From assembly GCF_005049235.1 (NCBI RefSeq), contig NZ_SUMD01000006.1, forward strand, positions 186,001 to 250,000: DNA of 64,000 nt, given 5' to 3'. The notes below the pieces were generated by a model. It was given only the letters and a program-made list of their open reading frames with translations, ran no database searches and was not told the origin of the DNA. Made by a program: the position numbers and the translations under genes. Positions 12,213 to 20,675 of the stretch are shown in pieces. This DNA is from Rhodococcus oryzae (GTDB lineage Bacteria > Actinomycetota > Actinomycetes > Mycobacteriales > Mycobacteriaceae). Each line of letters starts with the position of its first letter. The stretch's first letter is position 1.

Positions 12213-14603
12213 TCAGGCGCCGCCGGTACGGACCTCGTAGTCGCCGGCGGCGCACCCGGTCATCAGCGAGCCCTCACCGAGCGGGGTGAACGCGATGTCC
12301 TCGACCCCGACCGTGTCGACGGCCGAGGCGCCGGCGTCGACCCGGCTCGGGAACCAGACCTCGAGCCGGCAGCCGCCGTCGCCCGCGGTACCGGTCAGCT
12401 CCAGCCGGTCACCCTCGGCCGCGAGGTGGGTGATCCGCCCCGGCGCGAATCGCGGGTAGGCGCGGGTGAGCTCGTCGATCAGCGCGGTGTTCCGCGGGGC
12501 GTCCTCCCCGGTGCTGCACAGCACCGGCATCAGCCCGTCGCCCAGTTCCTGGATGCCGTTCTGCGGGTCCCCGCAGGCCTGCTTCCACACCCAGAAGGCG
12601 CCGCCCTGGATGCGCGCGTCCTGCTCGTTTGCGAAGCGGGCGGCCTTGTCGACGCGCCCGTCGCCCCAGTAGCCGTACTCGCCGGTCCAGACCGGGATGC
12701 CGCCGTACTTCTGTGCCACCCGGTCGGCGAGAGTGAAGCCCCGTTCGATGCTGACGATCGTGGGCAGGCCGAGCGAGGCATCCATCGTGATGGACTCGGC
12801 GTAGAGGTGCGGGGAGAAGACGATGTTGGTGTCGTCGGTGAAGCCGGCCGGGGGGCCGCTGTCGAACCCGAGGCCGGACCACAGGATGCTCGGCTCGAAG
12901 TAGACGATCTGCTCGGCGCCCGCCTCGCGGATGGCGTCGATGGTCCGGTCGTAGAAGCGGCCGAGCAGCAGCGACGAGGTCAGCGGCGCGGACTCGCCGA
13001 AGTTCGGCTCGTTCAGCAGGTCGTACCCGGCGACGGCATCCTCGTCCTTGAACTCGCCCGCGAGCATCGCCCAGGCCTGGACGAGTTGCTCCTGCACGCC
13101 GTCGGTGTCGTAGTAGAAGTTGTTGAAGGCGCGGCCGCCCGCGGGCGAGATGTCGCGCCCGGTGAACTGGCAGCGCGGTGCGCCGTCGGTGATCGTGGCC
13201 CACTCGGGCGCGCCGTCGTAGCCCCACATGGGCGAGGTGCCCGGCCGGCAGCTGACGTCATCGGGCGACGGGGCGTTCGACCAGCCGTCCTGATGCATGT
13301 CGAGCACGGTGTAGAGGCCGTGCGCCTTGGCCTGCGCGACGGCGACCCGGATCTGGTCGACATAGGCCTCGTCGTAGCGGCCGCGTTCCGGCTCGAGGGC
13401 CGACCAGGACAACGCGAGCCGGACCACGTTGAATCCGTGATCGGCGATACCGGCGAAATCCGCGTCGGTCAGCGGCAGGGTCGAGGGGACCTCGGGCCGC
13501 GGCGCATAGAAGTCGACGAGCTGGTTGACGTTGACGCCGCGAAGCAGGACCTCGCGGCCGGCCGCGTCGGCGATGACCTCGCCCGAGACACGCAGGGGCA
13601 GCAGGGTTCCCGACTCGGCGGAGTCGAGGGGTGCGGGCGACGCGGGCTGCGCATCGGGGCGGGCCAGGAACGGGACGGCCACCGCGACGGCGGCCAAGGT
13701 CACCGCGCCCGCCCGCAGGGCCGGGCGGGGGATCGGCGACGGCTGGGTCGACTGCCGCCGCGACCAGACCGCCGCGAATCCGACGATCCATCCCGTGCAG
13801 GCGCCGTAGGCGACGCCGTCCGCGAGCCGGATGTACCCGCTCATCAGCGGCCAGAGGTCTCCCGCGAAACCGTCGTCGGAGACCATCCCGACGATCGATG
13901 CGGCGAGGGCGAGCAGCGCGCCCGCACCCATCGCCGCGAACCATCCGGCGAGGAAGGTGGTCGCGGTCCCGCCTGCCACCCGGCGGCCGAGCACCCGCTG
14001 GCAGCCGATGGCGCCGAGGACGAGCACGGCGATCCCGCCGACGGTCGCGAGCACGCCGTTGAGGACGTTGGGCGCAGGCATCCACCGGTCGTAGGGAGCG
14101 CCTGCCCACCACTGTCCCGCCAGGAGCGGGGCGATGGCGCCGAAGATCAGCGCTCCGGCCCACACCGACGGCGCGTCGTCCGGTGCATCGGCCACGCTGC
14201 GGCGGCGGCCCGCGATCGCGACGACGCCCGCGACGATCAGTCCGGCCGGAATCGCCTTGGCGAGGGCGAATCCGCTGCCCCACGCCGCGGTCCCGAGGTC
14301 ACCCGCCGCCACCAAGGACATCGCGAACTTCGCCAGGAGCACGGCGAGCACGACGCTTCCGGTGGTGGCCGCGAACAGCCAGCGGGACCCGGCGATCGAC
14401 CGCACCGCCCACCACGTGACGCCGAGCAGCACCGGCAGGTAGACGACGAACGGCGCGATCTGCCAGGGCGCCCGGATCGGCCACAGATCCGCGCCGGTCC
14501 AGCCGAGCAGGCTCAGCAGGCCGCTCGGATCTGCGGCGGCCTGGACGATCACCAGCAGACCCAGGGCGAGGATCGCGATCCAGGCAAGGCGATTCGAAGA
14601 CAT
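12213..14603 (-). CDS. Membrane-anchored GH5 glycoside hydrolase, endoglycoceramidase-like
   Basis: A 796-residue protein. Residues 1-340 carry about eight to nine hydrophobic segments separated by short loops. Residues about 360-720 form a GH5 (cellulase-superfamily) barrel facing outside, with RGVNVNQLVDFYAP, TVLDMHQDGWSN, acid/base Glu in YDLLNEPNFGE (near residue 531) and nucleophile Glu in WTGEYGYWGDG (near 643). A small beta domain ends the protein. The DMHQDGWS and GEYGYWG patterns resemble rhodococcal endoglycoceramidases, which release glycans from glycosphingolipids; a cellulase role is the less likely alternative. The ATG at 14603 is chosen; six more codons are possible upstream. 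Known enzymes lack such a membrane half. Confidence 0.85.
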   Translation of the reverse strand: MSSNRLAWIAILALGLLVIVQAAADPSGLLSLLGWTGADLWPIRAPWQIAPFVVYLPVLLGVTWWAVRSIAGSRWLFAATTGSVVLAVLLAKFAMSLVAAGDLGTAAWGSGFALAKAIPAGLIVAGVVAIAGRRRSVADAPDDAPSVWAGALIFGAIAPLLAGQWWAGAPYDRWMPAPNVLNGVLATVGGIAVLVLGAIGCQRVLGRRVAGGTATTFLAGWFAAMGAGALLALAASIVGMVSDDGFAGDLWPLMSGYIRLADGVAYGACTGWIVGFAAVWSRRQSTQPSPIPRPALRAGAVTLAAVAVAVPFLARPDAQPASPAPLDSAESGTLLPLRVSGEVIADAAGREVLLRGVNVNQLVDFYAPRPEVPSTLPLTDADFAGIADHGFNVVRLALSWSALEPERGRYDEAYVDQIRVAVAQAKAHGLYTVLDMHQDGWSNAPSPDDVSCRPGTSPMWGYDGAPEWATITDGAPRCQFTGRDISPAGGRAFNNFYYDTDGVQEQLVQAWAMLAGEFKDEDAVAGYDLLNEPNFGESAPLTSSLLLGRFYDRTIDAIREAGAEQIVYFEPSILWSGLGFDSGPPAGFTDDTNIVFSPHLYAESITMDASLGLPTIVSIERGFTLADRVAQKYGGIPVWTGEYGYWGDGRVDKAARFANEQDARIQGGAFWVWKQACGDPQNGIQELGDGLMPVLCSTGEDAPRNTALIDELTRAYPRFAPGRITHLAAEGDRLELTGTAGDGGCRLEVWFPSRVDAGASAVDTVGVEDIAFTPLGEGSLMTGCAAGDYEVRTGGA

Positions 14604-14714
14604 CCGACACATTCCGTTCACTCAGGAGTTCCCGGAATCCTAAGTGCCTGCGCTTCTGCTCGCGCCCGGAACTGGACGATTGTCCGAATCGCGGGACCGT
14701 GCAGCTTGCCAACC

Positions 14715-15586: not shown

Positions 15587-15688
15587 GACGGCCGAGGGCC
15601 TGGTCTGCCCAAAATGCCCAGAGCCTCGCGGAACGTGAACTAGTCTCGGAAAACCTACTTCGCGGTATGTTCCGACACCGGGAGAGCC

Positions 15689-16975
15689 ATGAGTGCTCGC
15701 ATCGCCCGCGCGCCGTCGCGGTCCTCCGTTCTCCGGAGGTGCCTGCCCGCGCTGGCCGCCGTCGTGCTGGGGCTGGCGGTGGCGGGACCGAGCACGCCTG
15801 CGCCCGCCGCCGCGTCCGAGGCGGACACCTACCTGAACCTGCCGCTGGTCAACCGGGACGCCGCGCACGGTCCGGGCGGGGTGAACCCGGCGCTGCCGAC
15901 CGATCGCGGCGCGCTCGCGCGACTGCTAGACCAGGCCAGGGCGTCCGGTGTGGCGCCGAGCTCATATGCGGCGTTGCTCTATCAGTACTGGCTCGTCGAT
16001 GTCACCGCCGAGGCCGGCATCGACCTGGCGCGGTGGGACCCCCGCACCGGGGTGGAGGCGAACCGGGAGAACCTGATCCGGTCGTACCGGTACTACGAGC
16101 ACCTGCAGTTGCAGCACCGCGAGTTGCAGTGGGCGGGCATGGCCGGGCAGGTCGGCGCCGATTTCGGCGGCGGGCTCATCGATTTCGAGCTGATCACGAA
16201 CATCTACGACCTTCCGCAGCTGCAGCAGACCACGCGCGCCATCGTCGCGTCGGCGACCGAGGTCGCAGGACCGCAGATCGTCGACCGGCTCCCGAAGGGG
16301 TTGCGCGCGTTGGCCGGTGCGGGCGCCACGGTCACCGGGGACGACCTGCACCACATCCTGGGCATGATCCTGGTGATGCAGAAGAACATCTTCTCGGATC
16401 TGATGCCGATGCACCGCGCCTACGTCACCGAGGGCCTGCCCGCCCTCGAGGAGATGCGCGCTGCGGGGCTGTTCGGGCGGGACGTGATGGACGCGTGGCG
16501 CGACATCGCCTCGACGGATGCGGACCGGATCGCCCGTGGCAACGTGACCCTGCTGCGTCGCGAACAGGGCGTGATCATCCGGGAACAATGGGACGCCGTG
16601 CGGGCCTACAAGGGCGACGTCGGTGAGGCCGTCAGTTATCTGTCCACGGTCGCCGGGTCACCCTCGGTCGCAGGCGTGCTGCCGCCGCGCTCGTTCCGTC
16701 CCATCGAGATCGCCACCACCCTGCCCGACGGCCGGACCGCCACCCTGACGACGCCGCTGCCGAGCTGGAACTGGTCGGTCTACGAGGAGCGGTGGGACTA
16801 CATCACCACCCAGTTGCTGCCGAGGTACAAGGCGACGGTCGAAAGCGACTGGCCGCGGCTCGAGGCGGAGCTCCGCACCCCGTACGAGATCCAGATCGAA
16901 AGCCACCGGCCGTTGATGAACATTCCGCAGATTCTGCAATCGGCTCTCCAGAACACGAAAGTGACGGTGTCCTGA
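15689..16975 (+). CDS. Secreted protein of unknown function, coupled to a lipase-fold protein
   Basis: A 428-residue exported protein. A signal peptide (arginine-rich start, CLPALAAVVLGLAVAGP, Ala-rich cleavage region APAAASEA) covers about residues 1-43. The mature part is helical, rich in Leu/Ala/Arg with several aromatic clusters (YLNLPLVNRDAAHGPGG, LIRSYRYYEHLQLQHRE, PSWNWSVYEERWDYITT), and has no cysteine or catalytic motif that I recognise. The stop overlaps the ATG of the downstream lipase-like gene (TGATG), so the two exported proteins are made together and may act as a pair. I do not recognise the family. Confidence 0.8.
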   Translation: MSARIARAPSRSSVLRRCLPALAAVVLGLAVAGPSTPAPAAASEADTYLNLPLVNRDAAHGPGGVNPALPTDRGALARLLDQARASGVAPSSYAALLYQYWLVDVTAEAGIDLARWDPRTGVEANRENLIRSYRYYEHLQLQHRELQWAGMAGQVGADFGGGLIDFELITNIYDLPQLQQTTRAIVASATEVAGPQIVDRLPKGLRALAGAGATVTGDDLHHILGMILVMQKNIFSDLMPMHRAYVTEGLPALEEMRAAGLFGRDVMDAWRDIASTDADRIARGNVTLLRREQGVIIREQWDAVRAYKGDVGEAVSYLSTVAGSPSVAGVLPPRSFRPIEIATTLPDGRTATLTTPLPSWNWSVYEERWDYITTQLLPRYKATVESDWPRLEAELRTPYEIQIESHRPLMNIPQILQSALQNTKVTVS

Positions 16976-18360
16976 TGTCGACCGATCCGCGCGACCATCG
17001 TCCCCGCATCGGCGGGGTGCGCTCGCTCTCGGCAGCCGCCGCGGCCGTCGTCCTCGCGATCCTGTCGCCGGGTGTCGGTGCGGCGCAGGCACCCCCGCCG
17101 CCGCCCGTCGCGGTCGACACGCCCGCGCTGCAGGGCGAGGTGTTCAACGAGTTCGTCGAGGGCGCGTTCGAGGGCGGGGAGTTCGGCACCCGCGACGAGA
17201 TCCTCGGCGCGCTGCGGCCGAACGATCCGTTCTATGCCGAGCCGCCGCTCACCGGCGCCGAGAAGCCGGGCACCCTCCTCAAGGCCAAGCGGGTCGACGT
17301 GATGTTCACCGGCTTCAAGCCGGCAAACCTCGAGGCGTACAAGATCATGTACGTCACGACGGGGAACGACGGGGTGACCCCGACGATCAGCACCGGGTTC
17401 GTGATGATCCCGGTCGACGGCGTGCCCGCTTCGGAGAAGAAGGTCATCGGGTATCAGGAGGCCAACGACAGCGTCGGCGCCTACTGTCACCCCAGCACGC
17501 AGTGGACGGGCGGGGACCCCCTCGACGGCGCTTCGTGGTCCGCGCTCGGACCGCTGGCGTTGATGTTCGGCAAGGGGTACGCCGTCGTGATCTCCGATGT
17601 CGGCAACGATGCCGACCCCGATCCACACGGCGTCTTCGCGGCGAAGTTCGCAGGCCATGCCCAGCTCGACGCGTTGCGCGCGGCCACCTCGGGCGGCGGG
17701 ACGGGGCTGAGCCCGCAGGCCCCCATCGCGCTGTTCGGTGTCGCAGGCGGCGGCGTCGGCGCGGCCTCCGCGGCGGAGATGCAGGCCGGCTACGCGCCCG
17801 AGCTGAACATCAAATCCACTGTCCTCGAGGGCATGGTCATCGATCAGCGGAACTTCATGCGGACAGCGGACGGCTCGGTGGGCTCGGGGTTCGCCTTCGC
17901 GACCCTGCTCGGGCTCGAGCCCTGGTACCCGGAGATGCGGATCAACGACAAGCTCAACCCGGTCGGCCGGGCGCTGGCGGACGAGTACCGCGTGCAGTGT
18001 CAGATGCCGTCCTACTTCACGGCGCCCTTCGTGCCGCTCCGGCTGTTGTTCTCCAGCGGTCGGAGTCCGGCCGACATCCCCGAGTTCCAGCACGTCTACG
18101 ACGACAACAGGCTCGGCGGCCAGGCGCCGAGGTCCAAGGTGCTCATCTCCTCCTGCGGCAAGGACGACTCGCCCATGTCCCTTGTGCCCGCACAGGATTC
18201 CCGTGACCTCGCGGCCCGCTACCGGGCCGGTGGCACCGACGTCACCTACGCCCCCAGCGACTGCAACCTGAACCGGTTGTTCGCCGACCCGTACGGGTGG
18301 GGGACCGACCTGTTCGGCATGCAGACCATCGACTGGATCGACCGGAACTTCGCGGAATGA
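16975..18360 (+). CDS. Secreted lipase-family (LIP) protein lacking the catalytic Ser and His
   Basis: A 461-residue exported protein with a signal peptide (LSAAAAAVVLAILSPGVGAAQA) and the secretory-lipase fold: VIGYQEANDSVGAYCHPS, GYAVVISDVGND, and a block AALFGVAGGG-like at the nucleophile elbow. In active members this is GYSGGG; here the sequence is GVAGGG, with Ala at residue 257 in place of Ser. The acid region (SSCGKDD) is kept, but the usual catalytic His near the end is not seen (DCNLNRLFADPY). It is therefore probably a binding or structural protein, not a lipase. Its ATG overlaps the stop of the preceding secreted protein gene. Confidence 0.85.
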   Translation: MSTDPRDHRPRIGGVRSLSAAAAAVVLAILSPGVGAAQAPPPPPVAVDTPALQGEVFNEFVEGAFEGGEFGTRDEILGALRPNDPFYAEPPLTGAEKPGTLLKAKRVDVMFTGFKPANLEAYKIMYVTTGNDGVTPTISTGFVMIPVDGVPASEKKVIGYQEANDSVGAYCHPSTQWTGGDPLDGASWSALGPLALMFGKGYAVVISDVGNDADPDPHGVFAAKFAGHAQLDALRAATSGGGTGLSPQAPIALFGVAGGGVGAASAAEMQAGYAPELNIKSTVLEGMVIDQRNFMRTADGSVGSGFAFATLLGLEPWYPEMRINDKLNPVGRALADEYRVQCQMPSYFTAPFVPLRLLFSSGRSPADIPEFQHVYDDNRLGGQAPRSKVLISSCGKDDSPMSLVPAQDSRDLAARYRAGGTDVTYAPSDCNLNRLFADPYGWGTDLFGMQTIDWIDRNFAE

Positions 18361-20108: not shown

Positions 20109-20675
20109 CTACGCCGGGATGGTCAGAACCTGGCCGACGTTGATGGCGTCCGGGTTCGGGATGCCGTTGGCATCGGCGATGCGCTGGTACTGGTTGCCGT
20201 CGCCGTAGAAGTGGGTGGCGAGGTCCCAGAGGGTGTCGCCGGGGGCGACGGTGTGGGTGCGCGGGGCCGGGGGCGCCGGCGGGGCCTCGGCGGCGGCCGG
20301 GGCGACGGGGGCGGGCTCGGGCTCCGGCTCGGCCACGACCTCGACGGCGGTGTCCGAGGCCCAGACGGCCTTGTCGCCCGCGTACAGCACCACATTGCGG
20401 TCGTCCTGGACGACCAGCTTGACGTCGGAGTTGCCCGAGGTCTCGGAGGCCCACACGGCGTCGTTGCCCTCGGTGTACAGCACGAAGTTGCCGTCGTCCT
20501 GCAGGTCGGCCTTGACCGCGCTCTTGCCGTTGGTCTTGCTGGCCCACACAGCGTTGCCGCCCTCGCTGAGCACGAGGTTGCCGTCGTCCTGCAGCGTCAG
20601 CGCGTACGCGCCGTTGTTGGAGGTGATCGACTGTCCGGCCGTGAGGCTCGAACCGGCCTGCAAGGTGTCCGCCAC
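20109..20675 (-). CDS. Mannose-binding (bulb-type) lectin with C-terminal LysM
   Basis: A 188-residue protein. Residues 1-110 are a B-lectin beta-prism with three repeats holding the sugar-site pattern QxDxNxVxY: LQDDGNLVLS, LQDDGNFVLY and VQDDRNVVLY, each followed by AVWAS. A Pro/Glu/Ala linker (about 112-138) leads to one LysM domain (THTVAPGDTLWDLATHFYGDGNQYQRIADAN, shown in part as VAPGDTLWDLATHFYGDG) that binds peptidoglycan. The first repeat ends LS instead of LY, so only two or three sites may bind. There is no signal peptide. The architecture suggests a cell-wall-attached lectin or lectin-like bacteriocin; which is unknown. Confidence 0.9.
   Translation of the reverse strand: MADTLQAGSSLTAGQSITSNNGAYALTLQDDGNLVLSEGGNAVWASKTNGKSAVKADLQDDGNFVLYTEGNDAVWASETSGNSDVKLVVQDDRNVVLYAGDKAVWASDTAVEVVAEPEPEPAPVAPAAAEAPPAPPAPRTHTVAPGDTLWDLATHFYGDGNQYQRIADANGIPNPDAINVGQVLTIPA

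Follow-up and report, generated by a model that had tools for sequence, protein, structure and literature searches.

A pair of neighbouring genes in Rhodococcus oryzae encodes two exported proteins, here A and B, and B is, as judged by its residues, a conserved pseudo-lipase in which the canonical triad has been lost. The two-protein unit of the original prediction is real and conserved, with A adjoining B in 74 of the 79 loci surveyed. We lean modestly towards the view that in mycolic-acid bacteria A and B make up a dedicated exported unit of two proteins, where B would be a binding subunit of A that has no catalytic function. The task of the pair is probably to bind something and not to digest it, since B has lost its cutting residues and the partner gene is nearly always adjacent.

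The window, a stretch of 64,000 nucleotides from a genome of 5.37 Mb, carries A and B as two open reading frames of the same strand (Table 1). Both frames of the predicted secreted pair stand as called, and both N-termini look by eye like Sec signal peptides. The nearest named relative of both proteins is Rhodococcus maanshanensis, with 94–95% identity for B and 92% for A. A scan for promoters and terminators found none. The predicted translational coupling is plausible here with the TGATG overlap but is not general, because the relatives mostly have gaps of about 10–200 bases and some have the B-A or divergent arrangement.

Table 1. Features of the A and B genes, in positions of the window
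Feature	Position	Strand	Basis
Probable ribosome-binding site of A, GGGAGAG or near	15681..15687	+	Read directly, just 5′ of the A start
Gene A: exported all-helical protein, 428 aa, distant DUF2515 relative	15689..16975	+	Open reading frame; Pfam DUF2515 2.7e-5; AF2 pLDDT 92
Probable Sec signal peptide of A	15689..15817	+	By eye, hydrophobic N-terminus ending APAAASEA; hydrophobic N-termini in relatives too
Invariant D237...H242 of A, in a long central helix	16397..16414	+	Conserved in B-partnered and lone A
G284 N285 ... L288 L289 of A (B-partnered A only), then invariant R291-E292-Q293	16538..16567	+	Residue comparison of B-partnered and lone A
Overlap TGATG of A stop and B start	16973..16977	+	Read directly; A stop 16973-16975, B start 16975-16977
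Gene B: exported, predicted catalytically dead CALA-type (Pfam LIP) protein, 461 aa	16975..18360	+	Pfam LIP 9.4e-27; AF2 match to CALA-type lipases, Z 38-43
N-terminal extension specific to B (residues 48-80 or so), preceding the lipase fold; candidate A contact	17116..17214	+	Kept by the B orthologues, lacking in the Ser paralogues
Invariant Asp165 of B	17467..17469	+	83/83; aligns (3guu) with Asp of the YED segment near the CALA oxyanion site
Former nucleophile elbow G-V-A257-G-G-G-V of B	17737..17757	+	A257, G258, G259 and V261 each 83/83
Cys394 and Asp397 of B, acid position kept with a new Cys beside it	18154..18165	+	D397 81/83, aligned with CALA Asp334
Cys430 of B, where the catalytic-His loop used to be; found together with Cys394	18262..18264	+	Both Cys in 80/83

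B is a clear member of the Pfam LIP family (PF03583), matching it with a score of 94.5 bits where the cut-off is 23, and the match recurs in all 64 B members tested. Its elbow reads L-F-G-V-A257-G-G-G, the A257 codon being 17743-17745, and near the C-terminus PSDCNLNRLFADPYGW stands where active LIPs have EH. To avoid bias, the 79 loci were fetched by motifs far from the elbow, and they gave 83 sequences from about 13 genera. Every one of the 83 has Ala257 and none has Ser, whereas the aligned paralogous LIPs have both the Ser nucleophile and the His at the EH site in 22 of 22, a contrast well beyond what chance would give. The ten other LIP elbows of the same genome read GYS, GHS or GLS. The Ala-for-Ser exchange and the missing terminal His, both predicted originally, are thus borne out across the subfamily, and the idea that orthologues carry Ser is rejected.

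A displaced Ser-His pair was also sought in B. No His is invariant among the 83 sequences, the commonest being His172 (76/83), His218 (74/83) and His228 (59/83), and class II members have Met at 172 and Asn or others at 218. Hence, no displaced Ser-His(-Asp) site is conserved. The catalytic-Asp position is kept by D397, and Asp208 and Ser174 are invariant in the survey as is Asp165. That B could still be a hydrolase or transferase with an unusual nucleophile or alternative site would draw on these residues, with Asp397 near-invariant, but we regard it as very improbable, because Ala is at the nucleophile in every member, no His is invariant, and His172 and His218 are not kept in class II. The secretory-lipase label that B receives from its Pfam match is, on this reading of the residues, almost certainly wrong.

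The lipase fold itself is retained, as had been proposed. The AlphaFold model of B (pLDDT 94, pTM 0.94) superposes on Candida antarctica lipase A (CALA) and its relatives with Z of 38–43 and rmsd of 2.4. The alignment ends near CALA residue 387 of 431, and in the model the C-terminal lid strands 9–10 of CALA appear to be missing from B. Cys394 is absent from all 22 Ser paralogues, and at the Cys430 position those have the EH loop. A disulfide between these two Cys is probable and would staple the former active-site loops together.

On the B tree, the Ala-type proteins form one clade against the Ser paralogues, with support of 100 and a long stem. The tree shows the loss of Ser and His as a single ancestral event, with no reversion in the 83 sequences. 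Against R. maanshanensis, B has a dN/dS of about 0.11 and A one of about 0.18 by NG86, with lower values by YN00. Such strong purifying selection on B speaks against decay. A decaying gene or an assembly artefact might be suspected from the loss of two catalytic residues, but B is full-length in nearly all genomes with low dN/dS and a motif invariant in 83 sequences, so we give this practically no credence. As a pseudogene, B is ruled out by the dN/dS and the full-length conservation.

Protein A had been described as of unknown family, and this stands only in part. It scores 24.1 at full length and 24.7 as the mature part against DUF2515 (PF10720) with a cut-off of 24.3, which makes it a distant relative with a weak match at the cut-off. 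It also has B-less paralogues. The match spans the first third of the profile, was not recovered in the genome-wide scan at 0.01, and occurs, likewise weakly, in A and 32 of 61 relatives. The AlphaFold model of A (pLDDT 92, pTM 0.91) is nearly all-helical with one hairpin. Foldseek gave no match to it in the PDB at 0.001, and the sequence has no credible match among solved structures. The best VIA-align Z of 4.8 reflects helical arrangement only, which means little for a helical protein, and the structural no-match is not proof of a new fold.

A genes without B occur in the same genera and others, and no LIP match is found around these lone A genes within the stretches read. The B-partnered A and the B-less paralogues share 16 polar residues, including D165, D219, D237, H242, E255 and R291-E292-Q293. 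Specific to the B-partnered A are G284, N285, L288 and L289 just before REQ, and also R305 and R334; these six are candidate contact sites by residue comparison. In the host genome, a B-less A copy with 39% identity (G000:C28:180506-181708, -) lies about 4.3–5.5 kb left of window base 1 (L077:5971-7254). This lone copy adjoins glpX-like and fumC-like genes, and has the same neighbours in another species (L075).

The A and B adjacency takes three forms, A-B in 60 loci, B-A in 10 and divergent in 4. By parsimony on the B tree, the arrangement has changed at least 4 times, and with A beside B each time, the adjacency has been kept through rearrangement. In neighbour clustering, the pair is the only gene cluster common to many genera, the next having 4, and no third conserved gene of the unit is found across many genera. 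The five loci without adjacent A come from four genomes, of which three hold another complete pair and all four hold an A; in Gordonia sp. ABSL49_1, A and B lie on different contigs.

The A and B distances correlate with r of 0.87 over 57 pairs and 0.94 without Rhodococcus rhodnii, a correlation that is partly ordinary shared ancestry. In R. rhodnii (L119), a class I B stands divergent to a class II A, an apparent swap by which partners would be exchangeable. Elsewhere in the window, a 188-aa protein (20109-20675, -) has bulb-type mannose-binding lectin and LysM domains. In an 802-aa protein (12213-14621, -), the N-terminal half is hydrophobic and probably forms several helices, and a GH5 glycosidase domain is present as well; the protein recurs, among the 79 loci, in two Aldersonia loci only.

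B occurs in 90 of 401 genomes of the host's family, the hosts being Rhodococcus, Prescottella, Nocardia, Gordonia, Tsukamurella, Dietzia, Tomitella, Aldersonia, Speluncibacter and Corynebacterium variabile. Beyond the family, the sampled genomes of the phylum yielded A in a single case, weakly, and the class sample yielded no strong B. Nocardioides sp. GY 10113 (L143, 6010-10440) carries B-A-B with the A match in pieces. Nocardioides is a genus without mycolic acids, so its carrying these genes weakens a strict link to the mycomembrane unless they arrived by transfer or contamination. On a contig labelled as an Acidobacteriaceae MAG (L139), A and B lie divergently and group with Tsukamurella, and the contig is probably mis-binned. 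Altogether, bacteria with a mycolic-acid envelope account for nearly all occurrences of the pair, and many exported proteins of such bacteria await assignment.

These observations can be assembled as follows. Of the two partners A would be the older, a helical protein which has an invariant set of polar residues and which is also found by itself. B would be a CALA fold that gave up Ser and His once in the common ancestor, has since been held under strong selection, and was added to A as a subunit, either at the cell envelope or beyond it. We read B as the accessory non-catalytic subunit, given that A also occurs on its own and B scarcely ever does so. Its pocket may bind an acyl, ester or similar ligand, or A itself, without hydrolysis; with the elbow glycines, the acid position of Asp397, Asp165 and the lipase core all kept, the pocket most likely still binds. 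We infer the physical A-B complex, the ligand and a role and location in the envelope from the fact that the proteins are exported, from the mycolic acids of their hosts and from the lipase fold that B has kept; any activity of A is likewise conjectural. More speculatively, and doubtful as it is, the pair may be an exported two-component system in which the pseudo-lipase carries a lipid, or a ligand linked to one, and passes it on to A, whose helical fold would be one absent from solved structures, for example in building or remodelling the outer lipid layer.

The roles may instead be weighted towards A, as an unrecognised helical enzyme or a metal or ligand protein with B as a pseudo-subunit that acts on it allosterically or presents its substrate. 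Regulation of an active partner is common among pseudoenzymes, A is found without B, and even the lone paralogues at about 34–40% identity keep D165, D219, D237, H242, E255, R291, E292, Q293, R368 and R407, while the residues G284, N285, L288 and L289 of the B-partnered A sit directly before the REQ motif. Yet A matches no enzyme in fold or sequence and its invariant residues may simply be a structural core, so we take this as possible but a minority view. Less likely again, A and B would be co-inherited neighbours that act separately in one exported process with no contact. The divergent and reversed arrangements and the R. rhodnii swap are what such neighbours could show, but their adjacency survives at least 4 order changes where the other neighbours all differ, and B is very rarely apart from A.

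B may also face outwards as a surface or secreted binder for adhesion, or for a host or substrate surface, in the manner of MPT51. It is exported, and a dead hydrolase fold is indicated in the same order for MPT51, as far as a title listed in PMC8875947 tells. Against this, the hosts include many environmental species and the dedicated partner A is absent from the MPT51 picture, which leaves it distinctly unlikely. B itself is a clean pseudoenzyme with one ancestral loss, no reversion and a conserved partner gene, so that the purpose of a dead lipase becomes testable.

Neither A nor B has a PADLOC match for anti-phage defence. A is exported, is about 430 aa long and matches DUF2515 at the curated cut-off, as compared with one control match of DUF2515 in Bacillus subtilis; the literature search found no papers on DUF2515. 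MPT51 is an exported protein that belongs to the antigen 85 group, not to CALA, and we know of no A-type partner for it. Going by the title under which PMC8875947 cites Wilson 2004, MPT51 (FbpC1) of Mycobacterium is a non-catalytic α/β hydrolase, and B resembles it, to the extent that this title conveys, as an exported dead hydrolase fold in mycolic-acid bacteria. B, for its part, falls in LIP.

By descent B belongs with CALA, whose catalytic triad is Ser184, Asp334 and His366 (PMC2841678). B is like CALA and Pfam LIP in the fold over about 358 residues (Z 38, rmsd 2.4), the acid position, the elbow glycines and the export. It is unlike CALA in having no equivalents of Ser184 and His366, and in having the N-terminal extension, the extra Cys pair and the dedicated partner gene. 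The literature search found no CALA-type pseudoenzyme, with or without a helical partner. Pseudoenzymes as such are already known, and so, on the title cited above, are exported dead α/β hydrolases in mycolic-acid bacteria. What is new relative to the literature searched is the combination of a pseudo-lipase of the CALA type and a helical partner dedicated to it.
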